The notes beneath the pieces were generated by a model, which was not told the origin of the DNA, did no database searches, and worked only from the letters and a program-made list of their open reading frames with translations. Below are positions 5,068 to 15,993 of a stretch of DNA of 18,492 nt, in pieces. Within the stretch, counting starts at the first letter, position 1; every line of letters starts with the position of its first letter. This stretch comes from Pseudomonadota bacterium (GTDB lineage Bacteria > Pseudomonadota > Gammaproteobacteria > Xanthomonadales > Xanthomonadaceae). Both the position numbers and the translations under genes were made by a program. Location of the stretch: positions 1 to 18,492 of the forward strand of contig JAFAFD010000490.1 of NCBI GenBank assembly GCA_023423675.1, read 5' to 3'.

Positions 5068-5550
5068 TCAGTGCTGGTGACCACCGTCGCCATGGACGTG
5101 GCCGTGGTCGATTTCTTCCTTGGCGGCTTCGCGCACTTCAACGATCTCGACGTTGAAATGCAGGTCCTTGCCGGCCATCGGGTGGTTCAGGTCGACGTCG
5201 ACCACGCTCATGCCGACCTTCTGCACGGTGACCGCGCGCGGGCCGAAGTTGGTCTGCAGCACGACCTGCTGGCCCGGGACCAGCTTGGCGGTGCCGAAGT
5301 GCTTCTTCGGCACGCGCTGGGACAGGCCTTCGCGGCGCTCGCCGTAGGCATCGGCCGCCGAGACGTCGACGTCGAAGGTCGCGCCGGCTTCCTTGTCCAT
5401 CATGGCGTTTTCCAGGCCCGGGATGATGTTGCCGTGGCCGCTCAGGATCGACAGCGGCTCACCGCGGTCCTTGGACGATTCGATCGGCGCCTGGCCGACC
5501 TCGGAGACGGTGTAGTGGAAGCGGACAACGCGGTCTTTTTCGATCTTCAT
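5068..5550 (-). CDS. slyD: SlyD-type FKBP peptidyl-prolyl cis-trans isomerase
   Basis: A 160-residue FKBP-family isomerase/chaperone that catalyses prolyl cis-trans isomerisation in the cytoplasm. Seen: the FKBP core with GHGNIIPGLENAM near residues 38-50, an inserted 'flap' domain (about residues 70-125), the return strand with VDVDLNHPMAGKDLHFNVEI that is diagnostic of SlyD, and a histidine-rich C-terminus (DHGHVHGDGGHQH, five His in 13 residues). In E. coli SlyD such a tail binds nickel and other divalent metals and supports hydrogenase maturation; here the tail is short, so metal binding is inferred. The ATG at 5550 (MKIEKDRVVRF) fits the family start; the frame stays open upstream only because of high GC. 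It is transcribed divergently from the first NlpC/P60 gene across a 111-bp spacer. Confidence 0.92.
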   Translation of the reverse strand: MKIEKDRVVRFHYTVSEVGQAPIESSKDRGEPLSILSGHGNIIPGLENAMMDKEAGATFDVDVSAADAYGERREGLSQRVPKKHFGTAKLVPGQQVVLQTNFGPRAVTVQKVGMSVVDVDLNHPMAGKDLHFNVEIVEVREAAKEEIDHGHVHGDGGHQH

Positions 5551-5661: not shown

Positions 5662-6201
5662 ATGCACAACACGCCAGTTTCGTCCGGCCTGCGCCGGATC
5701 CTCGCGCCCGCCCTGCTGCTGGCCCTGCCCCTGCTGCTGGCCGCCTGCGGTGGCGGCAAGGCCGTCCGCCCCGCCACGCCGCCGCCCACGGCGCACTGGC
5801 CGGCCACCACGCCGGACAACCCCGAGGCCGCCAATTCGGTGCTGATGCGCGCCATCAGCCTGGTCGGCACGCCCTACCGCTATGGCGGCAACACCCCCGA
5901 TTCGGGCTTCGACTGCAGCGGCCTGGTGACCTACGTGTACCGCGAGATGGTCGACCTGAAGCTGCCGCGCACCTCACGCGACCTGGCCGCCGTGCAGGGA
6001 CCGAAGATCGATCCGCAGCGCCTGGCCACCGGCGACCTTGTGTTCTTCGGCAGCCGCGGCAACGTCACCCATGTCGGCATCTACGTGGGCGAAGGCCGGT
6101 TCGTGCACGCGCCGAGCACCGGCGGCACCGTCCGCCTGGACTCGCTCAGTGGCGCCTACTGGAAAGACCACTACACAGGAGCGAAACGCGTCCTTCGCTA
6201 A
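5662..6201 (+). CDS. NlpC/P60-family cell-wall peptidase, lipoprotein
   Basis: A 179-residue lipoprotein predicted to cut peptide stems of peptidoglycan in the periplasm. The N-terminus is a type II signal with the lipobox LAAC (modified Cys29). A short Pro/Thr-rich linker leads to the NlpC/P60 domain from about residue 58: SLVGTPYRYGG, then GFDCSGLV with catalytic Cys85, GDLVFFGSRGNVTHVGIYVG with His137, and RFVHAPS with His149 as the third catalytic position. It resembles the single-domain Spr/MepS class of endopeptidases in size and lipidation. The ATG at 5662 follows an AGGAG-like sequence (CCGGAGAAC) and places the signal peptide correctly. A paralogue lies 131 bp downstream on the same strand. 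Confidence 0.93.
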   Translation: MHNTPVSSGLRRILAPALLLALPLLLAACGGGKAVRPATPPPTAHWPATTPDNPEAANSVLMRAISLVGTPYRYGGNTPDSGFDCSGLVTYVYREMVDLKLPRTSRDLAAVQGPKIDPQRLATGDLVFFGSRGNVTHVGIYVGEGRFVHAPSTGGTVRLDSLSGAYWKDHYTGAKRVLR

Positions 6202-6332: not shown

Positions 6333-7103
6333 GTGACGACTGACGACCTGCAAGGCCAAGGCCAGACCGCCGCTTCTTCACGTAGTGTCCGCCCGCTTTT
6401 CCTGGGCCTGGCGCTGTGTCTGACCAGCCTTCCGGCCTGGTCGCAGAGTGCCCCCACCAAGACCGACGCGACCCCGGCCACCGTGGCCGAGACCGCCCGG
6501 CCGGCCGCCAAGGCCGACGCTGCCGCTCCCCAGCGCAGCCGTGCCGATGCCGCCGCCAGCGCCACCCTGGCCGCCCTGCTGCCGCATCTGGCCGCCAATG
6601 ACACCATTCCCCTGATGGACCGCTCGGCGATGGTCGCCGGCGACCTCAGCCGCCTGCTTGCCAACTACGACACCAGCAGCGCCGCCAATGGCAGCGTCGT
6701 TGGCACCGAGGCCGACAACGGCAAGGTGCAGTCCCTGCTGCGCCGCGCGATGACCCTGCTGGGCACCCCGTACCGTTGGGGTGGCAGCAACCCGGACAGC
6801 GGCTTCGACTGCAGCGGCCTGGTCGGCTACGTGTTCCGCTCGGCGCTGGGCATCGAGCTGCCGCGCGTCTCGCGCGAAATGGCCCATGACAACAATGCCG
6901 AACTGATCAACGACCGCGCCGCGCTGGCGGCGGGCGACCTGGTCTTCTTCGGCCGCAAGGGTCGCGTCGACCACGTCGGCATCTATGTCGGCGAAGGCCG
7001 CTTCCTGCACGCACCGAGCACCGGCAAGGACGTCCGCGTCGACACCCTGCTCAGCGGGTACTGGGGCAACAAGTTCATGCAGGCCCGCCGCGTCGACCTC
7101 TGA
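6333..7103 (+). CDS. NlpC/P60-family cell-wall peptidase, secreted
   Basis: A 256-residue peptidoglycan endopeptidase candidate and paralogue of the upstream lipoprotein. The GTG at 6333 is the only reasonable start. It precedes a signal peptide (FLGLALCLTSLPAWSQ, cleavage near residue 38) with no lipobox cysteine, so the product is expected to be free in the periplasm or exported. An Ala/Asp-rich region of about 100 residues follows, and then the NlpC/P60 domain: TLLGTPYRWGGSNPDSGFDCSGLV with the catalytic cysteine, GDLVFFGRKGRVDHVGIYVG with the catalytic histidine, and RFLHAPSTG. The two paralogues share nearly identical motif blocks, pointing to tandem duplication followed by a change in localisation. 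No clear Shine-Dalgarno precedes the GTG. A strong intrinsic terminator lies 24 bp after the stop. Confidence 0.92.
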   Translation: MTTDDLQGQGQTAASSRSVRPLFLGLALCLTSLPAWSQSAPTKTDATPATVAETARPAAKADAAAPQRSRADAAASATLAALLPHLAANDTIPLMDRSAMVAGDLSRLLANYDTSSAANGSVVGTEADNGKVQSLLRRAMTLLGTPYRWGGSNPDSGFDCSGLVGYVFRSALGIELPRVSREMAHDNNAELINDRAALAAGDLVFFGRKGRVDHVGIYVGEGRFLHAPSTGKDVRVDTLLSGYWGNKFMQARRVDL

Positions 7104-7342: not shown

Positions 7343-8691
<1,349 letters not shown>

Positions 8692-8695
<4 letters not shown>

Positions 8696-8891: not shown

Positions 8892-10187
8892 CTACAACAT
8901 GTACGGCACCTTGAACGACAGCGTGAAGTCCGGTGCATCCGGGGTCAGGCCGATGCCCAGCAGGGTCACCATCGTCGCGTGCTGGTTCAGCGCGTAGGTC
9001 ACGCCCAGGTTCAACGACGCCGCATTGGCATCGCTGCCGATCACCTTCACCCACTGCCCGCCCTGGAACCGCGTCGACGCGCGTGCACTGATCTTGTCGC
9101 TGAAGGAAATGCTCAGGCTAGTGCGTTCGTTGAAGGCGAAGGCCACGCCGGCACCGAAGTACACCGACCCGCCCAGCTTCACATCGCCGGGGTTCACGGT
9201 GTCCGGGTTGCTGTCGATATCGTCGAAGCCACGCGGGAAGGAATGGATGTAGCCGGCGTTGGCGAACAGGATCGCCGGATCGGCGGTCTTCACCATCGAC
9301 ACGCCCAGGTTGGCCTGCCAGACGCCGTTGCCGGTCGGCTGTTCGCGCGGGACCGCGAAGCGGATGTAGTCATCGTCATCACGCTCGATCACCCGCCAGT
9401 CCAGGCCATACGGTGCGCGGCCGGTCGGTGCGGTGACGCCGCCGGTCAGCACCGTTTCCGGGCGCCAGCCACGCTCGCCGAACAGGCGGTAGTTGGCGCT
9501 CATGCTGACATCGCCAATGCCGTTGCCGTTGGTCTCTTCCTGCGCGATCGCCGCCGCCGCGCCGCCCGCACCACCCTTCTGGTACACGGTGCGCCGTGCC
9601 AGGTAGGGCACGTCCATGTTCAACGTCAGGTTCGGGCTGACACCCCAGCGCGCGGCCAGGTTGTAGGTCAGCGAATCGGACTCGACATTCTCGATGGCGA
9701 TGTTGCCGAGGAAGATCGCATCCAGCGCCAGGAAGCCGTTGAGGGAGAGCTGCTTGCGGTCATAGCGCGCGTAGGTGAGGCTGTTTTCAACGGTGAACCT
9801 GCGCGAGAACAGCGCCGCCTGCTGCTGTTTCACATCGTCCACGCTGCGCCGCGCCTCCTGCTTGGCCTGCTGGGCCTCGGCCGCGGTGCTGGCATAACCT
9901 TCGCTGCTCGGTGGCACGGCGGCCGCCGCCGCAGACGCCAGGGGCGCCGCCGGGGTCGTGGCGCCGCCGGCCCGTCCACTCAGGCGGGCCTGCATGGCCT
10001 GCACCTGCATGTCCAGCTCGCGCAGGCGTCGCACCTCCTGCGCGTAGTTGGCCTTGAGCTGCTCGAGCTGGGTGATCAGTGCCTGTACATCGGCACCGTC
10101 CTTGGCCTCCGCCGCCGGTTGCTGGGCGAAGGCATTGGCCGCCAGCGCCGCCAGCGCCAGCGGGGTAAGCCGCAAATAGGTGTGCAT
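8892..10187 (-). CDS. fapF: FapF-like outer-membrane amyloid exporter
   Basis: A 431-residue protein expected to form the outer-membrane pore that secretes Fap amyloid subunits. The order of parts matches FapF: signal peptide (cleavage after AFA, residue 21), a periplasmic coiled coil (about 32-69, DVQALITQLEQLKANYAQEV onward) that trimerises in Pseudomonas FapF, an Ala/Pro-rich linker and a second charged helix (about 95-125), then a beta-barrel from about residue 128 (RRFTVENSLTYARYD) to the C-terminal strand FTLSFKVPYML. The barrel part has alternating hydrophobic strands and long polar loops. It is the last gene of the operon, 45 bp after fapE, with a strong terminator behind it. The Shine-Dalgarno is weak. 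Identification rests on this layout together with the neighbouring fapA-E genes. Confidence 0.88.
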   Translation of the reverse strand: MHTYLRLTPLALAALAANAFAQQPAAEAKDGADVQALITQLEQLKANYAQEVRRLRELDMQVQAMQARLSGRAGGATTPAAPLASAAAAAVPPSSEGYASTAAEAQQAKQEARRSVDDVKQQQAALFSRRFTVENSLTYARYDRKQLSLNGFLALDAIFLGNIAIENVESDSLTYNLAARWGVSPNLTLNMDVPYLARRTVYQKGGAGGAAAAIAQEETNGNGIGDVSMSANYRLFGERGWRPETVLTGGVTAPTGRAPYGLDWRVIERDDDDYIRFAVPREQPTGNGVWQANLGVSMVKTADPAILFANAGYIHSFPRGFDDIDSNPDTVNPGDVKLGGSVYFGAGVAFAFNERTSLSISFSDKISARASTRFQGGQWVKVIGSDANAASLNLGVTYALNQHATMVTLLGIGLTPDAPDFTLSFKVPYML

Positions 10188-10232
10188 GTCGTTGGCCTGC
10201 GTTGTCCGTCCTTCCCCCTTGACCGGGCCGTG

Positions 10233-10982
10233 TTACTGGCCCGGGCCCATGCCGCGGTTCAGCGCGATCGCCTGGGCCACGCTCTGGCTCAACGGCTGGT
10301 TGCTGGCCACGGTGCTGCGTACCAGCTCAAGCTGCAGCCGGTTGCTTGCCACTTGCCCATCACCGGACAGGGCGATGCCCTGGCCGACGCTGCCATTGCG
10401 GATCCACTGCTGGACCAGGCCCTGGCCGTCGATCTGCAGCATCAGGCGCGCCTGGTTGCCATCGAGCACCGCCGTGGCACTGGTCCCGCCCTGCTGCATC
10501 TGGGCGATGCGGTTGCCATCGTCGGTGGTGGTCGGCACCGCGCCATCACGTACGGTCAAGGTGGTCACGTTGCGCGCGGTGTTGCCATCGCCGGCCACCT
10601 GCACCGCCTGCACCAGGCCGGTGGCGTTGGCCAGGCCGCTGCTGTCGATGCTGCGTCCGTCCGGGGTGGGCATCGGGGCATCGGCGTTGGTGACCTGCAC
10701 GTGCGGCTGGAACGTCAGCCGCGGCGTACTGCCCTGGCGGAAGTCCATGCCCAGGGTCAGCGCGCCCTGCACGCTGCTGCCGTTGGCACCCTGCCATTGC
10801 GAAATCATAGTTACCCCGAACCAGGCCACGTTATTGCCGCCCACGGTGTAGCGGCCACGCATCAGGTTCAGTTCGGGATCGGGTATTTCCTTCAGGCCGC
10901 GCCCTGGTGCGCCTTCAGCGGCCCAGGCGGGCAGCACCGGCAACAGCAGCAGCGTGGCGATCAACAAACGTTGGCACAGCAT
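10233..10982 (-). CDS. fapE: FapE-like amyloid accessory protein
   Basis: A 249-residue secreted protein with a clear signal peptide (residues 1-22, cleavage after AWA). Pseudomonas FapE is found in small amounts in fibrils and is needed for their assembly or secretion; its mechanism is not known. Just after the signal peptide comes IPDPELNLMRGR (residues 33-44), which resembles the leader of double-glycine-processed peptides. Next is a beta-rich region beginning YTVGGNNVAWFGVTMISQWQ, and then Gly/Asn/Gln/Thr-rich segments with spaced Asn residues, as in fibre-associated proteins. The ATG at 10982 has a strong GAAGGAGG Shine-Dalgarno directly after the fapD stop (13-bp gap), which settles the start and implies coupling to fapD. 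The assignment combines this sequence with the operon position between the C39-type peptidase and FapF. Confidence 0.82.
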   Translation of the reverse strand: MLCQRLLIATLLLLPVLPAWAAEGAPGRGLKEIPDPELNLMRGRYTVGGNNVAWFGVTMISQWQGANGSSVQGALTLGMDFRQGSTPRLTFQPHVQVTNADAPMPTPDGRSIDSSGLANATGLVQAVQVAGDGNTARNVTTLTVRDGAVPTTTDDGNRIAQMQQGGTSATAVLDGNQARLMLQIDGQGLVQQWIRNGSVGQGIALSGDGQVASNRLQLELVRSTVASNQPLSQSVAQAIALNRGMGPGQ

Positions 10983-10995
10983 GATCGGGCCTCCT

Positions 10996-11700
10996 TCAGA
11001 ACAGGTCGGCATGGCTGAAGCCGAAATCGACCAGTTCGGCATCGGTGATCGGGCCCTGCCGCGCGTACAACGCACGCGCACTGGGCCGCTCGCTGGGTTG
11101 CAGAAGAACCGTGTTGCGATCGAAGTCGCTGCCGATCACGACGAAAACAGCGCGCGACGGCCACGCTTCGTTGAATTCGGCCAGGGACAGGCTGCGGTTG
11201 CCGAGGATGGGGTCGGCCACCTCGACGATGCCGCCACGGACCTGCTTGAGCACCACGAAGTGGCGGAACCCGCGCACGTCCATCAGCACCAGGCCGGGCA
11301 CGCGCAGGTTGCGCAGCCGGCTTTCATCGATGCGGTAGCCACGCCCGCGCATGCCGAGTGATTCGACATAGCGCTTGATGTCCAGCAGCGAGAAACCGCG
11401 TTCCTTCACCAGCTGCGGATCGGACACGCCCATCATCCCTTCGATCACCGTCGCCTCCGTGGTGTCCAGGTGGTAGGCGTAGCGCAGGATGGTGGCCAGT
11501 GCGGCCGCGCCACAGCTGTAATCGGTGTGTTGCCGCACCAGGTTGCGGTAGCGCCGCTCCTGCATGCTCTCCACCTTCTGCTGCATCAGCGCGCCGTTGG
11601 GCAGTACGCCGGTGAACTTGACGTCGCCCGCCCATGCGTGGGCGCTGCCCAGCAACAGCAGGCAGGACAGCAGGCGGATCCAGCAGCGGTGTGCGGCCAT
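10996..11700 (-). CDS. fapD: FapD-like C39-family cysteine peptidase
   Basis: A 234-residue papain-fold peptidase of the C39 type (the domain that cuts double-glycine leaders in bacteriocin exporters), here a stand-alone periplasmic protein. The signal peptide ends near residue 24 (AHAWA). The active site is complete: oxyanion Gln57 six residues before the nucleophile Cys63 (QHTDYSCGAAA), His147 in FRHFVVL and Asp163 in VADP. In Pseudomonas fap operons FapD is required for normal fibril export, but its substrate is unsettled. The ATG at 11700 is preceded by GGAGGG at good spacing; the frame stays open upstream only into the hairpin-rich spacer. The gene follows fapC after 139 bp with three hairpins, so its expression may be set below that of the structural genes. 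Confidence 0.92.
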   Translation of the reverse strand: MAAHRCWIRLLSCLLLLGSAHAWAGDVKFTGVLPNGALMQQKVESMQERRYRNLVRQHTDYSCGAAALATILRYAYHLDTTEATVIEGMMGVSDPQLVKERGFSLLDIKRYVESLGMRGRGYRIDESRLRNLRVPGLVLMDVRGFRHFVVLKQVRGGIVEVADPILGNRSLSLAEFNEAWPSRAVFVVIGSDFDRNTVLLQPSERPSARALYARQGPITDAELVDFGFSHADLF

Positions 11701-11721
11701 GGTGCCCTCCAGAAGAAGGAA

Positions 11722-11820
11722 GGAGCCCCTGCCCCAAGGGGGAGGAGGAGCAGGGGCTCCCGGGAGACCCGGCCATTGGCGGATGGCCGGGCTTGTTGCA
11801 CTCAACGCAGCTTCGCTGCG
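11722..11820 (-). promoter_or_regulatory. Three tandem hairpins in the fapC-fapD spacer
   Basis: Three inverted repeats lie in line. GGAGCCCCTGC (11722-11732) pairs with 11750-11760, 11 bp with a 17-nt loop. CCCGGCCAT (11768-11776) pairs with 11783-11791, 9 bp with a 6-nt loop. CGCAGC (11806-11811) pairs with 11815-11820 around a TTC loop. On the operon's strand the last hairpin is followed by TTCCTTCTTCT before the fapD Shine-Dalgarno. They could act as partial terminators or as a 3' shield for fapC mRNA. Confidence 0.65.
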
Positions 11821-11839
11821 AAAGCGATCACGCCAGGTG

Positions 11840-13222
11840 TTACTCGCCGCCGCCGGTGCCGCCACCGCCACCGGTGCTCGGCTGTGCCACGGCCAGGGCC
11901 AGGCTGTTGGCCTGCAGGTTGCCGGTGCCCGAGGCGACGTTCACGCCGATGTTGCCGGAGGCGCCCGAGAACGCACTGCCCGACAGCGCCGAGGTGTTGG
12001 TCGCATTCACGTTCACCCAGCGGGTGGTCGTGACGGTGCCGCTCAGGCTGGCGTACAGGTCGGCGACGCCCAGTTCGACGAACTGGCTGGTGCCGCTTTC
12101 ACGCGTATCGAAGCCCAGGCCACCGACGCCCTGACGGTACGGGTTCGGCGTCGCGTTCTGGATCTCGTTGTCCAGATCGATGTGGCCGGTCGCGTTGCCA
12201 CCCGGGTGCGGCAGGTCGCCACTCCAGGTATCCAGATAGTAGTTGGCCATCTGGTAGGCATTGCCACGGCCGCTGTAGGTGCCGGCGCCATAGGCCAGGG
12301 TCAGGCCGCTGACACCGCCGCTCATGCCGACCTGCACCGTATCGGTGTAGGACTGCACGAAGCCGGCATTGCTCACGGCATTGCCGCTGGACACCTGGTT
12401 GGAGCTGATGCTGGACTGGGCCATCGCGCTGGTGGCCACCGACGCAGCGAGCGCGTTCTTCTGCTCGTTGTTGTTGCCCGACGCGATGTTCACGCCGATG
12501 TTGCCGGACGCGCCGCCGAAGGCATTGCCACCGAGGCCGGCAGCGTTGGTGACGCCGGAGTTCATGGTGGTGTTGCCCATGCCGGACTGGTTGACGAACA
12601 CTTCAGCGTCGGCCATGCCGAAGCTGAAGGACGCGTCAGCGGCGGACAGCGAAGCCGCATTGTCCTGCGCGTTGTTGTCACCGGCCACGACGTTGAAGCC
12701 GAGGTTGCCCGAGGCACCCGAGCCGACGTCATCGGCGATCGAGGCGCTGTTGGTGACCAGGCTGTTGGACGCGGCGTTGTGGCTGATCGACTGGCGGTTG
12801 TCGATGACCGCGATGGCGGCCGAATCCAGGTCGATGTCACCGGTGATGGTCGGATCGCCGGAGAAGTTCACGTCGCTGCTCAGGCGCAGGTCCTTTTCCA
12901 GGTTCACGTCGACGCCGTGGTTGTTCTTTTCCTTGCGCTCGTCGGCCTGGATGTTGCTGTTCTTCTGTACCTGCTCGTTGACCGTACGGTTGCGGGTCAC
13001 GCTCGAGCTGTCGGTGTTGTTGCGTACCGTGGTGTTGGTACGGGTCCAGTTGCGGACCTCGTTGTCGGTGTGGTTGTGGGTGTCGTTACGGGTTTCGGTC
13101 ACGACATGGTTGTGGTTGATGTTCGCGTTGGCGTTCTGGTTGTCCCAGCCATTGGCCGCGGCGGCGGTCGAGGCAGAAGCAATTGCCATGGCGAGCAGAG
13201 ACTTCTTGAAAGTCGCGTTCAT
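11840..13222 (-). CDS. fapC: FapC-like major functional-amyloid subunit
   Basis: This is the expected main fibre protein, 460 residues with a signal peptide ending near residue 23. Three imperfect amyloid repeats can be seen, each built on GASGN(I/L)G(V/F)N followed by a glycine turn and an Asn/Gln/Ala strand: R1 about 141-197, R2 about 209-262 and R3 about 402-446. R1 and R2 are close together, while a linker of about 140 residues separates R2 from R3. Between the signal and R1 is an unusual Asn/Thr/Arg/His-rich stretch (about 26-103), with pairs such as HNH and HNHTDN. The protein ends in a Gly-rich tail and has no cysteine at all, whereas Pseudomonas FapC carries a C-terminal CXXC. The ATG at 13222 follows a GAGAGAGGA Shine-Dalgarno. 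It lies 45 bp after fapB. Confidence 0.9.
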   Translation of the reverse strand: MNATFKKSLLAMAIASASTAAAANGWDNQNANANINHNHVVTETRNDTHNHTDNEVRNWTRTNTTVRNNTDSSSVTRNRTVNEQVQKNSNIQADERKEKNNHGVDVNLEKDLRLSSDVNFSGDPTITGDIDLDSAAIAVIDNRQSISHNAASNSLVTNSASIADDVGSGASGNLGFNVVAGDNNAQDNAASLSAADASFSFGMADAEVFVNQSGMGNTTMNSGVTNAAGLGGNAFGGASGNIGVNIASGNNNEQKNALAASVATSAMAQSSISSNQVSSGNAVSNAGFVQSYTDTVQVGMSGGVSGLTLAYGAGTYSGRGNAYQMANYYLDTWSGDLPHPGGNATGHIDLDNEIQNATPNPYRQGVGGLGFDTRESGTSQFVELGVADLYASLSGTVTTTRWVNVNATNTSALSGSAFSGASGNIGVNVASGTGNLQANSLALAVAQPSTGGGGGTGGGE

Positions 13223-13267
13223 GGTGTCCTCTCTCTCATCAGTGATACATCGGGTGGTGGGTACTGC

Positions 13268-13891
13268 TCACGGGTTGCCCTGGACGACCATGCCAAGCAC
13301 GTTGGCCGTGTCGTTGCGGGCTCCCGCGATCTGATTGAGTTGCAGGACACCGTCGAAGCCCCGCAGTACCGAGGCGGAAACCCCGACGCTGCGGATACCC
13401 GCCGCAACACCGTCGCCGATGTCGCCCTGCCCCCCTGTTGACGCGATGTCCGACGCCGCCAAAGCCGCGTCGTCGGTCTCGCGTATCCCTTGCCGGGCCA
13501 GCGTCGCGCTGACGACGTTGAGGGTCGTATTGGCGATGCCACTGGCCTGGTTGATCGATGCGATGCCACTGGCGCCGTTCAGCGCCTGGCCTTCGATATG
13601 TGCGCTGGCCTGCAGCGGCCCCGACAGCACCACGTCGGCATGGCGCTGCTGGCGTGCAGCGATGGCGACGTTGGCCTGGTCGCCGGTGGCCATGCCCTGC
13701 AGGTTGGCCTGGATGTTCAGGTCGCCGCTGGCCTGGTTGACCATGATGGCGCCACTGGCACCGGCCAGCGCGCGGTCGCCGATACGGGCCACGTCCAGAT
13801 AGGACAGCATGCCGCTGTAATCATCGGCCCAGGCCAGTGCGGGCGCACCCGCCAGCACCAGCAGCAGCGCGCCACGCGCCGCGCGATTCAC
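13268..13891 (-). CDS. fapB: FapB-like minor amyloid subunit (putative nucleator)
   Basis: A 207-residue secreted protein with a signal peptide (cleavage near ALA-WA, residues 20-22) and three amyloid-like repeats: GASGAIMVNQASGDLNIQAN (about 44-63), GASGIASINQASGIANTTLN in the middle, and GFDGVLQLNQIAGARNDTAN close to the C-terminus. All share the pattern G-A/F-S/D-G-x4-NQ-x-(S/A)G, related to those of FapC. In Pseudomonas FapB is thought to nucleate FapC. The start is a GTG at 13891 that overlaps the fapA stop in GTGA, with a perfect GGAGGT Shine-Dalgarno upstream, so translation is coupled to fapA. No cysteines are present. The repeat pattern and the order fapA-fapB-fapC support the call over a second FapC copy. 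Confidence 0.87.
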   Translation of the reverse strand: MNRAARGALLLVLAGAPALAWADDYSGMLSYLDVARIGDRALAGASGAIMVNQASGDLNIQANLQGMATGDQANVAIAARQQRHADVVLSGPLQASAHIEGQALNGASGIASINQASGIANTTLNVVSATLARQGIRETDDAALAASDIASTGGQGDIGDGVAAGIRSVGVSASVLRGFDGVLQLNQIAGARNDTANVLGMVVQGNP

Positions 13892-14427
13892 TTGCCACCT
13901 CCCTGCGGTGCCGCGCCCAGCGGGAACTGCGCCAGCGCGCCGCGCACGGTATCGCCGATGCCGCGGGTGGTGTTGCCGACGGCGCCGAGCGGGCCGCTCA
14001 TCGCACCGCCCAGGCTGTTGCCGCCGAGCGCGCCGTCACTGGAACGGCCCAGCGTGCCGCCGAGGGCCTGGTGGGTCACCCGCTCCACGGTGGTGCCGCC
14101 TGGCGCGGCCATGCGGCCGGTCTGCCCCGCCCCGAGCCCGGCATAGTCGTCATCGCTCAATTCATCCATGCCGCTGGAGCCGCCGCCGCTGCCGAGTGCG
14201 GTGGCGATCTCATGCTGCGGTTTGGGATCGGCGATCAACGCCATGCCGGGCGCCGCCATGCGATAGGCCGGACGTGCGGCCACATCGCGCAGCAGGACGA
14301 TCTCGCCCGGCTGCGCCTTCACTCCCTGGCGCGCACCCGAGGCGGCGGCCGCCAGCGGGCAGGCCAGGGCCAGCAGCAGCGCCAGCTGCCGGACCGAGGA
14401 ACCGAGATGGGTGGTGCTGCTGTCCAT
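13888..14427 (-). CDS. fapA: FapA-like protein, first gene of the amyloid operon
   Basis: A 179-residue exported protein. The signal peptide spans about residues 12-29 (LALLLALACPLAAAAS). A compact region follows (GEIVLLRDVAARPAYRMAAPGMALIAD), then a Gly/Ser linker, the motif LSDDDYAGLGAG (residues 90-101), and a Gly/Leu-rich tail with repeated LGG/GALGG units to the end. In Pseudomonas FapA affects which subunit makes up the fibre and is regarded as a chaperone or regulator; the same role here is inferred mainly from operon position, size and low complexity. The ATG at 14427 has a GGGAGAG Shine-Dalgarno and lies about 22 nt from the predicted sigma-54 start site. The stop overlaps fapB's GTG by four bases. 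Confidence 0.78.
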   Translation of the reverse strand: MDSSTTHLGSSVRQLALLLALACPLAAAASGARQGVKAQPGEIVLLRDVAARPAYRMAAPGMALIADPKPQHEIATALGSGGGSSGMDELSDDDYAGLGAGQTGRMAAPGGTTVERVTHQALGGTLGRSSDGALGGNSLGGAMSGPLGAVGNTTRGIGDTVRGALAQFPLGAAPQGGGK

Positions 14428-14459
14428 GCCGCTCTCCCGTTGCGTATGCGCAGGGACAG

Positions 14460-14476
14460 AGCAGCTTCCGTGCCAA
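14460..14476 (-). promoter_or_regulatory. Sigma-54 (-24/-12) promoter of the fap operon
   Basis: On the minus strand the sequence TTGGCACGGAAGCTGCT matches the consensus TGGCACG-N4-TTGC with one mismatch (CTGC for TTGC). The invariant GG (14474-14473) and GC (14462-14461) are separated by exactly ten bases, as sigma-54 requires. Transcription should begin near 14449, about 22 nt before the fapA ATG. Confidence 0.85.
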
Positions 14477-14482
14477 CTTCCA

Positions 14483-14504
14483 AACCGCTTGGTAGCAAGC
14501 GGTT
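14483..14504. promoter_or_regulatory. 9-bp inverted repeat directly upstream of the -24 element
   Basis: AACCGCTTG (14483-14491) and CAAGCGGTT (14496-14504) form a perfect inverted repeat with a 4-bp centre. It is centred about 45 bp upstream of the predicted start and ends 7 bp from the -24 box. A protein bound here would touch or block the promoter, so a repressor or co-regulator operator is plausible. The binding factor is unknown. Confidence 0.55.
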
Positions 14505-14536
14505 CAGCCAGTCGAGGGGTGGCGCGTTGCCAGCAG

Positions 14537-14629
14537 GGTGTTACAGAGGCGTTCGGATTTCGTTTGCCTTAACGTGCAGGAAACAACGCTGCACAAGGCT
14601 TGGCAGGGGCTGTATCAGCGGTGTTACAG
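14537..14629. promoter_or_regulatory. Direct repeats GGTGTTACAG, candidate enhancer sites for the sigma-54 activator
   Basis: The ten-base sequence GGTGTTACAG occurs at 14537-14546 and again at 14620-14629, 83 bp apart (near eight helical turns). The copies are centred about 92 and 175 bp upstream of the predicted fap start, in the usual range for enhancer-binding proteins. Each contains the small dyad TGT-T-ACA. Between them is a 6-bp inverted repeat GTGCAG/CTGCAC (14574-14594). Confidence 0.5.
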
Positions 14630-14644
14630 GTGCTGATACAGCCC
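14607..14644. repeat. 13-bp perfect inverted repeat past the symporter stop
   Basis: GGGCTGTATCAGC (14607-14619) and its exact complement (14632-14644) flank a 12-bp centre that contains the distal GGTGTTACAG copy. It begins 15 bp after the symporter stop codon, so it may be a terminator hairpin, although no T tract follows on the minus strand. Its symmetry around the repeated motif also fits an operator for the fap regulator. Both uses are possible. Confidence 0.6.
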
Positions 14645-14658
14645 GTTGCAGTGCCGCT

Positions 14659-15993
14659 TCAGCTACGCGGCGGGGTCGGGTCGGGATCATCCAGGCCGAC
14701 GTTGGTCGAAGGGTTGTCGTACACCGACTGGTCGAGCAGGCCGGTTTCCTTGGCCACCAGCACCGGCACCAGCATCTGGCCCGTCACGTTCGTCATGGTC
14801 CGCATCATGTCCAGGATGCGGTCGATCGCGTACAGGTAACCGATGGTTTCCAGCGGCAGGTTGGCCGCACTCAGCACCACGGTGGCCATGATGACCGCCG
14901 TGCCCGGCACGCCGGCCGTGCCGAAGCTGCCCAGCACCGATGCGATCAGCACCACCACGTACTGCTCCGGCGTCAGCGGCACGCCGCTGTACTGGGCGAT
15001 GAACACCGCGCACAGCGCAGGGTAGATCGCACCGCAGCCGTCCATCTTGATGCTCGCGCCCAGCGGCACGGCGAACGAACCATAGTCCTTGTTGACGCCC
15101 AGGTTGTGGGTGATCGAACGCAGCGCCACCGGCATCGCCGCGAAGCTGGACGAGCTGACGAACGCCACCTGCATGCCCGGCGCGGCACCGCGGAAGAACT
15201 TCAGCGGATTCAGCCCGTGCGAGAGCAGCAGCGCGCTGTAGACCACGATGATGTGCAGCGCGCAGGCCACGTACAGGGCCAGCACGAAATGGCCCAGCGG
15301 CAGCAGCTTCTCGAAGCCGTAGCTGCCGACCAGGCCGGCGATCAGGCCGAAGGTTCCGATCGGGGTGACTTCCAGCACGAAGCGGGTCACCTGGATCATG
15401 ATGTCGCTCATCTGGCCGACCAGCTTGCGCGCCTCGGTCACCTTCTCGCCGAGCTTGACGATGGCGAAGCCGACCAGGCCGGCGAAGAAGATCACCGGCA
15501 GGATCGAACCACGGCCGGCCGCCAGCACGGTCTCGCCCGCGGCGTTGACCTTGGTGCCGATGCCCGACAGCGCGTAGAACACGTTGGACGGCACCACGTC
15601 CAGCAGCACCTGCACCACGCTGGGTACTTCGCGCGGCACGTAGTTGTTGGCCATCGACAGCTGCAGGCCACCGGCGCCGGGCTGCAGCACCGTGCCCACG
15701 CCCAGGCCCACGCACACCGCCAGCGCGGCGGTGATGACGAACCACAGGAACGTGCGGCCACTGAGCGCGGCGACCGATTTCTGGCCGTGCAGCGAGGAGA
15801 TGGCGTTGATGACCGCGAAGAACACCAGCGGTACCGCGATCATCTTGATGAGGGTGACGTACAGCTCGCCGAGCGGGCCGAACCACGTTTCAGCGGCCGG
15901 GCCAAGCGCCCAGCCCGCCAGCGCGCCGAGCACGAAGCCACCGACCACGCGCTGCCAGAATGGAATCCGCAGCCAGGCAGAGACCAGTTTCAT
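14659..15993 (-). CDS. Dicarboxylate/amino acid:cation symporter (DAACS family)
   Basis: A 444-residue inner-membrane secondary transporter that brings in C4-dicarboxylates or acidic amino acids with protons or sodium. Family hallmarks are present: an N-terminal helix block with LGELYVTLIKMIAVPLVFFAVINAI, the serine-rich re-entrant motif SSSSFAAMP, MDGCGAIYPAL in the position of the usual NMDGT region, PGTAVIMATVVLSAANLP for the second hairpin loop, and LDMMRTMTNVTGQ in the last helix. Substrate preference cannot be settled between DctA-like and GltP-like activity. The ATG at 15993 (MKLVSAWLRIPFWQR) gives normal length; the reading frame remains open far upstream only because of base composition. 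It is divergent from the alkaline phosphatase gene across 153 bp. Confidence 0.93.
   Translation of the reverse strand: MKLVSAWLRIPFWQRVVGGFVLGALAGWALGPAAETWFGPLGELYVTLIKMIAVPLVFFAVINAISSLHGQKSVAALSGRTFLWFVITAALAVCVGLGVGTVLQPGAGGLQLSMANNYVPREVPSVVQVLLDVVPSNVFYALSGIGTKVNAAGETVLAAGRGSILPVIFFAGLVGFAIVKLGEKVTEARKLVGQMSDIMIQVTRFVLEVTPIGTFGLIAGLVGSYGFEKLLPLGHFVLALYVACALHIIVVYSALLLSHGLNPLKFFRGAAPGMQVAFVSSSSFAAMPVALRSITHNLGVNKDYGSFAVPLGASIKMDGCGAIYPALCAVFIAQYSGVPLTPEQYVVVLIASVLGSFGTAGVPGTAVIMATVVLSAANLPLETIGYLYAIDRILDMMRTMTNVTGQMLVPVLVAKETGLLDQSVYDNPSTNVGLDDPDPTPPRS

Follow-up and report, generated by a model that had tools for sequence, protein, structure and literature searches.

A complete fap functional-amyloid operon in a Stenotrophomonas-like genome and the promoter, activator, and likely operator that accompany it

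There is clear evidence for a complete functional-amyloid (Fap) system in the DNA analyzed here, a stretch of 18,492 nucleotides (the window; contig JAFAFD010000490.1 of assembly GCA_023423675.1), in which the operon fapABCDEF occupies the minus strand from position 14427 to 8892. Very probably, it is an ordinary Fap system that brings its own control module, which consists of a sigma-54 promoter, an activator of the VpsR/BrfA type, and an upstream palindrome as the likely operator. Gene order, homology, the fold of FapF, the promoter sequence, the conservation of the palindrome, and the linkage of the activator were established directly. A preliminary description of the same DNA had recognized the operon and considered it a divergent branch of the Fap system; the control module (regulator and promoter) was overlooked.

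The comparisons are based on 80 loci from a scan of named genomes (the best 80 of 102 stretches encoding relatives), which together with the window form a set of 81 loci. They further include 91 whole genomes of the same genus (Stenotrophomonas), the nearest of which (G001) shares 75% of the sampled 31-letter words, and a class sample of 369 genomes; outside this group, 17 further loci of the class were examined. Judged by FapF, the host is a Stenotrophomonas near S. cyclobalanopsidis, which provides the closest named locus (97% in FapF) among the best 80 of the 102 stretches.

Gene order and identity of the Fap proteins

The six genes lie in the order described for Pseudomonas, and the best NCBIfam match of each product is the corresponding Fap model. 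The first gene, fapA (13888-14427; 179 amino acids), encodes a glycine-rich, periplasmic chaperone-like protein (chaperone_FapA, E 2.2e-9, 37.8 bits) and was detected in 78 of the 80 fetched loci as well as in the window. Its 3' end is overlapped by fapB (13268-13891; 207 amino acids; FapB, E 2.5e-22, 79.4 bits), which has a GTG start and encodes the minor repeat subunit and putative nucleator. The major amyloid subunit is encoded by fapC (11840-13222; 460 amino acids; FapC, E 1.9e-49, 169.1 bits), followed by fapD (10996-11700; 234 amino acids; FapD, E 1.7e-76, 256.4 bits) for a periplasmic C39-type cysteine peptidase, which also matches Pfam Peptidase_C39 (PF03412; E 5.7e-19) and contains the motifs SCGAAA, with the catalytic cysteine, and FRHF. 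The operon ends with the genes of a fibril-associated protein, fapE (10233-10982; 249 amino acids; FapE, E 1.5e-24, 86.6 bits), and of the outer-membrane transporter, fapF (8892-10187; 431 amino acids; FapF, E 2e-111, 372.7 bits). The same order on one strand is present in 79 of the 81 loci, and the remaining two are interrupted by a contig end. Both the profile comparison, although at scores below the curated cut-offs, and the survey of relatives thus bear out the operon as first described, and every test with a clear outcome identifies it as a complete Fap system.

FapF is also assigned by structure. Its sequence matches the solved FapF of Pseudomonas (PDB 5o65) with an E value of 5.4e-78. 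A monomer model built with 22 sequences (mean predicted local distance difference test score [pLDDT] 69, predicted template modeling score [pTM] 0.62) comprises an N-terminal coiled-coil helix (residues 28-69), a plug helix (102-127), and the strands of a beta barrel (131-430), in agreement with the coiled coil and barrel that had been proposed from the sequence. In a Foldseek search with this model, the top 18 PDB matches are FapF entries (among them 5o67 and 5o65) with template modeling (TM) scores of 0.87-0.91 over the target; the COG4313 channel 4rl8 ranks after them.

FapD and FapF also match the models of FilB/FilC, a putative pilus system, but the similarity, compared through protein models, is far weaker than that to Fap (120.6 vs 256.4 bits for FapD and 76.8 vs 372.7 bits for FapF). 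In three loci elsewhere (L120, L121, and L122), genes for FapD-like and FapF-like proteins lie beside a sigma-54 activator, and the queries used matched no fapB or fapC within the stretch retrieved; perhaps these are systems of the FilB/FilC type.

Occurrence of fap in the genus and class

Stenotrophomonas and other Xanthomonadales have been known to carry Fap since 2013 (Dueholm 2013, PMC3792158). A screen of GTDB is reported to have yielded 1602 fap clusters; the canonical order is found in over 90% of them, and three repeats are almost universal (PMC12822426). A fapF match is present in 83 of the 91 genomes of the genus and, counting both strong and weak matches (E 1e-20 or better), in 35 of the 369 genomes of the class sample. 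Together, the earlier reports and the frequency of fapF indicate that the operon is ordinary and close to core in the genus.

The system shares with that of Pseudomonas the six genes in the same order and on the same strand, a match of each protein to the counterpart model, a FapC with three repeats, a C39-type FapD, and a barrel-forming FapF. It differs by scores that remain below the NCBIfam cut-offs, a longer linker 2 and a long N-terminus of FapC that is rich in asparagine, threonine, and histidine, and the lack of cysteine in FapB and FapC. The proposal of a divergent branch therefore holds only in part: the differences in linkers and cysteine content are real, but a different repeat length is not seen, and Fap was already published for the genus, where 83 of 91 genomes carry fapF.

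No Pseudomonas fap locus was recognized in the class sample, the family sample, or the plasmid records. FapF has 18 distant matches in plasmid records, each with less than 60% identity. A plasmid origin of the operon was rejected, as the 1413-base stretch 13268-14680 has no near match among 72,556 plasmid records. One genome of the class sample (G353; L110 and L123) has two copies of FapF in different locations (402 and 345 bits, respectively), with an activator match in the fetched stretch only at the second. Two labels look mislabelled or contaminated, namely a contig titled Bacillus subtilis SK7B5 that bears a Stenotrophomonas-like fap locus (L025), and a FapC that one source assigns to Flavobacterium sp. 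MXW15 (P0123).

Repeats, linkers, and cysteines of FapC

FapC consists of a signal peptide, an N-terminal stretch rich in asparagine, threonine, and histidine, three imperfect repeats near residues 172, 240, and 423, a long linker 2, and a glycine-rich tail (QPSTGGGGG). By sequence, it matches the subunits of solved FapC fibres (PDB 9nqd, E 3.8e-12; 9u4u, E 5.2e-12). All three repeats follow the pattern GN(I/L)GxN...N.Q.N, and their asparagine, glutamine, and glycine columns are invariant in an alignment of 28 FapC. Within the otherwise variable N-terminal region, a strongly conserved stretch precedes repeat 1 (residues about 102-143; HGVDVNLEKDLRLSSD...DSAAIAVIDNRQ). A structural model from the 28 sequences has low confidence (mean pLDDT 55.9, pTM 0.41); the repeat regions contain strands at pLDDT 70-83. 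Neither this model nor that of FapF yielded the structural result that the preliminary description had named as refuting the system.

A repeat length different from that of Pseudomonas had been suggested, but the region with repeats 1 and 2 aligns to FapC of Pseudomonas strain UK4 with hardly any difference in length (161 residues in the query, 157 in UK4) and with a linker 1 of about the same size. Linker 2 exceeds that of UK4 by about 110 residues, in line with the suggested difference in linkers, and lies within the range of 35-259 residues given in PMC12392863. The difference in cysteine content is likewise evident, because FapB and FapC of the window are both free of cysteine. The CxxC motif is absent from all 79 FapC of the 81 loci, some of which contain a single cysteine (for example, that of L064, with at least one). 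In an alignment made by eye, the sequence AVAQPST of the window corresponds to AVACNTC or AVSCVTC of FapC from three loci elsewhere in the class (L111-L113). Among the 11 readable FapC from these other parts of the class (L116, where only a FapB-like open reading frame is present, and the masked L119 are excluded), CxxC is found within the last 150 residues of 4 (L109, L111, L112, and L113) and is absent from 7, so that the motif is no universal mark of FapC. Both the length of linker 2 and the lack of CxxC are thus real features of the window, yet they are also seen elsewhere.

These features could be taken to mean that the operon is derived from Fap but free of amyloid, having diverged into a secretion system in which the repeat proteins serve another purpose. 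The missing CxxC, a C-terminal motif termed conserved in PMC6173800, and the long asparagine-rich N-terminus would fit such a system, as would the existence of FapD/FapF-like pairs lacking fapB and fapC matches near similar activators. However, the same report places CxxC outside the fibre core of its model, it is likewise missing from 7 of the 11 readable FapC of other parts of the class, and the asparagine, glutamine, and glycine columns of the repeats are invariant; in UK4, mutation of the conserved asparagines and glutamines is reported to slow fibre formation (PMC12392863). We therefore regard an amyloid-free system as highly improbable.

Sigma-54 promoter and neighbouring activator

A sigma-54 (-24/-12) promoter (TTGGCACGGAAGCTGCT; 14460-14476, minus strand) that agrees with the consensus at 12 of 13 positions ends 32 bases before the ATG of fapA. 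A promoter scoring at least 10 is present before fapA in each of 79 loci (12 in 25 loci, 11 in 50, and 10 in 4). A score of 10 is reached by 7.3% of 7900 random segments, and one of 11 or more by only 1.3%, compared to 75 of the 79 loci.

On the opposite side of the operon, a gene on the plus strand that is convergent with fapF encodes a BrfA-like enhancer-binding protein of 450 amino acids (7343-8695; the reading frame is open from 7184, and the ATG at 7343 was chosen by homology). Its Pfam domains comprise Sigma54_activat (E 3e-68), an AAA+ domain with the GAFTGA motif, and HTH_8 (E 8e-6), a helix-turn-helix (HTH) of the Fis type; both are present in all 14 activators compared, including that of the window. 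The N-terminal domain weakly matches the Pfam domain of VpsR, a regulator of Vibrio. An activator gene adjoins fap in 80 of the 81 loci, convergent downstream in 61 and divergent upstream in 19; the only exception is L077, where the contig ends 349 bases past fapF. Elsewhere in the class, an activator match is present in 16 of 17 loci, and in 7 of the 17 the activator matches the profile of the N-terminal domain at E 0.01 or better.

This arrangement closely resembles that reported for Pseudomonas fluorescens PF07 (PMC9207406), where brfA, which encodes a sigma-54 activator with a Fis-type HTH, lies in reverse orientation right after fapF, and fapA is preceded by a -24/-12 promoter. In PF07, fap expression requires RpoN and BrfA and falls in mutants of either gene, and fapF is described as not being up-regulated alongside fapA-E. 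BrfA is reported to sense cyclic diguanylate (c-di-GMP; PMC13101488, citing its reference 20). A search of a study on a temperature module of c-di-GMP in S. maltophilia (PMC11404848) found no mention of fap or amyloid.

A palindrome nearly confined to fap

The palindrome TGTAACA-N4-TGTTACA (CCTGTAACACCGCTGATACAGC; 14609-14630, minus strand), a candidate operator of the activator, begins 154 bases before the -24 element. It is accompanied by a further half site (TGTATCAG; 14633-14640, minus strand) about one helical turn farther upstream and by a promoter-proximal half site (CTGTAACACC; 14537-14546, minus strand). The latter precedes the -24 element by about 70 bases, a position that is repeated in many relatives. 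At least one exact copy of the half site TGTWWCA occurs upstream of the operon in 72 of 79 loci, compared to 2.8% of 4050 random windows, and these copies, counted from the -24 element, cluster near -70, -152, -163, and -175, repeating at steps of 11-12 bases. The exact outer dyad TGTA-N10-TACA is found in 34 of the 79 loci and in 15 of 4960 controls. With a matrix derived from the 79 loci, the site of the window scores 30.6 bits and the next best in the window 8.8; all 79 loci have a best site of at least 13 bits near fapA (the matrix being in-sample), which in two of them (L047 and L053) is the proximal one, near -83 and near -82, respectively.

The motif is also specific. Across 80 named loci (1.6 million bases), the matrix finds 100 sites of at least 13 bits near fapA and 5 elsewhere; a sixth site outside these regions belongs to fapA of L124 and was not counted. 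Allowing at most one mismatch, the 91 whole genomes contain 60 palindrome sites, 51 of which lie 4370-4810 bases upstream of fapF and 9 elsewhere (one of the latter, that of G031, may belong to fapA, separated from fapF by a contig break); a reversed control pattern has two sites in the same genomes. Because these genomes belong to the genus from which the motif came, this count tests specificity more than independent recurrence. The palindrome is nearly confined to fap and nearly unique in the whole genomes of the genus. There is no match to Rfam anywhere in the window, and a search for a printed operator of a fap activator, which excluded the 2024 paper on BrfA in Microbiol Res (10.1016/j.micres.2024.127864), found none.

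The location of the palindrome, 29-50 bases past the end of the SDF family transporter gene upstream of fapA (14659-15993, same strand), and its potential to form a hairpin are also compatible with a terminator of that gene, conserved for that reason. However, the palindrome is not followed by a run of T, and its half sites recur at steps of 11-12 bases and again near -70. Moreover, in 19 of 19 loci of the S. maltophilia complex, where the operon lies elsewhere in the genome and fapA has a different neighbour, the divergent activator, the palindrome starts 153-154 bases from the promoter. The maintenance of this position next to a different gene argues for a function linked to fap and makes a terminator very unlikely. 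The terminator reading was rejected, as the site is retained in the nine loci of the complex (of 19) that were checked for flanking genes and whose fetched flanks lack the upstream gene.

Probable relocation in the Stenotrophomonas maltophilia complex

The 19 loci with a divergent activator (L002-L017, L032, L040, and L065) form a single clade in the FapF tree (support 99/94), which is the sister group of the window and S. cyclobalanopsidis. The operon is published for the same genus (PMC3792158). Its setting in the S. maltophilia complex differs from that in the window, where the activator lies downstream and converges on fapF, an arrangement shared with the 60 remaining loci in which it was seen. 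Six genes flanking the operon were sought within the fetched flanks: none was present in the nine loci of the complex that were checked (of 19), whereas all were present in each of the seven other Stenotrophomonas loci checked; among other genera, they were present in one of five loci and absent from four. In the case of the upstream transporter, the flank matches show orthologous DNA, not protein. The single FapF clade and the missing flanking genes indicate that the operon and its activator most likely moved once, and together, in the ancestor of this clade.

The flank of the operon in the window also contains a tandem pair of NlpC/P60 genes (5662-6201 and 6333-7103) beside a gene on the opposite strand for an isomerase of the FKBP type (5068-5550). 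These neighbours of fap are kept in all seven of the further Stenotrophomonas loci that were checked and do not belong to the S. maltophilia complex. Farther away, between an EamA gene and a reductase gene, lies a tandem array of 2.7 copies of a 33-base unit (2149-2240) with the self-complementary sequence AGCCGAGCATGGGCTCGGCT, which resembles the short dyad repeats common in Stenotrophomonas.

A model of fap control and its alternatives

The roles of the Fap proteins and the sensing of c-di-GMP by BrfA are carried over from work on Pseudomonas. By this analogy, the Fap proteins would reach the periplasm via their signal peptides, where FapA would keep the subunits soluble and the C39 peptidase FapD would process Fap proteins, enabling their export by FapF. 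The barrel of FapF, with its plug and periplasmic coiled coil, would release FapB, FapC, and FapE; FapB would then nucleate the fibres, into which the three repeats of FapC would stack. Transcription is predicted to begin at the sigma-54 promoter before fapA and to require the neighbouring activator of the VpsR/BrfA type, which most likely binds TGTAACA-N4-TGTTACA at a distance of some 130-155 bases from the promoter, on its upstream side, and, if it behaves like BrfA, would fire at high c-di-GMP.

The binding of the palindrome by the neighbouring activator is suggested by linkage, position, and the near-exclusive occurrence of the site. Since the pairing of the two is based on linkage and many loci have several half sites, the palindrome might instead be the operator of another regulator, a repressor or a global factor, with the adjacent activator using the weaker proximal half sites or acting from elsewhere. 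Regulators of the FleQ/AmrZ type do act on biofilm genes in Pseudomonas. By contrast, the location of 51 of the 60 sites at fap is expected of a local regulator, and both the distance and the 11-base spacing of the half sites fit a Fis-type dimer upstream of a sigma-54 promoter. Such a second regulator is therefore unlikely, and the adjacent activator is the preferred candidate. We infer that fap may be its sole or main target and that the module may act as a fap-dedicated switch gated by c-di-GMP, as reported for BrfA in P. fluorescens.

Several observations weigh against an ordinary Fap system with this control module. All six proteins score below the equivalog cut-offs curated by NCBIfam (FapA 110, FapB 190, and FapC 195 bits), and that of FapF is passed in none of the 91 genomes of the genus. 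The proteins of the window are thus outside these narrow families as drawn; the wider Fap system includes the genus (Dueholm 2013). The fold search with FapC ranks the fibres 9nqd and 9u4u first and second at E values that are not significant (3.8e-3 and 0.13; TM < 0.2), with a probability of 0.25 for the top match of a low-confidence monomer model, which speaks neither for nor against the fold. The VpsR N-terminal domain of the window activator (E 5e-4, 20.1 bits) is below the Pfam cut-off of 23.7; among the 14 aligned activators, it is found at E 0.01 or better in 11 (best 2e-8). The likeness to BrfA of PF07 is judged from the published description and from domains. Sigma-54-like matches with at most two mismatches are not enriched in the window alone (20 found vs 33 expected), so that the promoter call rests on conservation. 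The palindrome was discovered by looking through the same upstream regions in which it was counted; at no more than one mismatch, 32 of the 83 genomes with fapF lack it upstream of this gene. In the 19 named loci of the S. maltophilia complex, one half of the palindrome is degenerate (20.7-25.9 bits), and in other parts of the class, a site of at least 13 bits between the activator and the first fap gene is present in 6 of 17 loci.

Implications

As an operon, fapABCDEF of the window merely adds a copy to a system already published. The control module, however, yields a sharp and testable prediction, namely the sequence and position of an operator and the near-exclusive target of the fap activator, and narrows the question of how fap is switched on outside Pseudomonas. 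The absence of CxxC from every FapC seen in the order bears on whether this motif matters for fibres. On balance, we lean towards the view that Stenotrophomonas and its order, which includes a group of opportunistic pathogens, possess a private, single-target c-di-GMP switch whose operator precedes fapA, is in essence limited to one copy in each genome, and shares its phase with additional half sites. Such a switch would have moved together with the operon and would control a fibre without CxxC. If so, the production of fibres would be a clean and insulated read-out of c-di-GMP in these bacteria.

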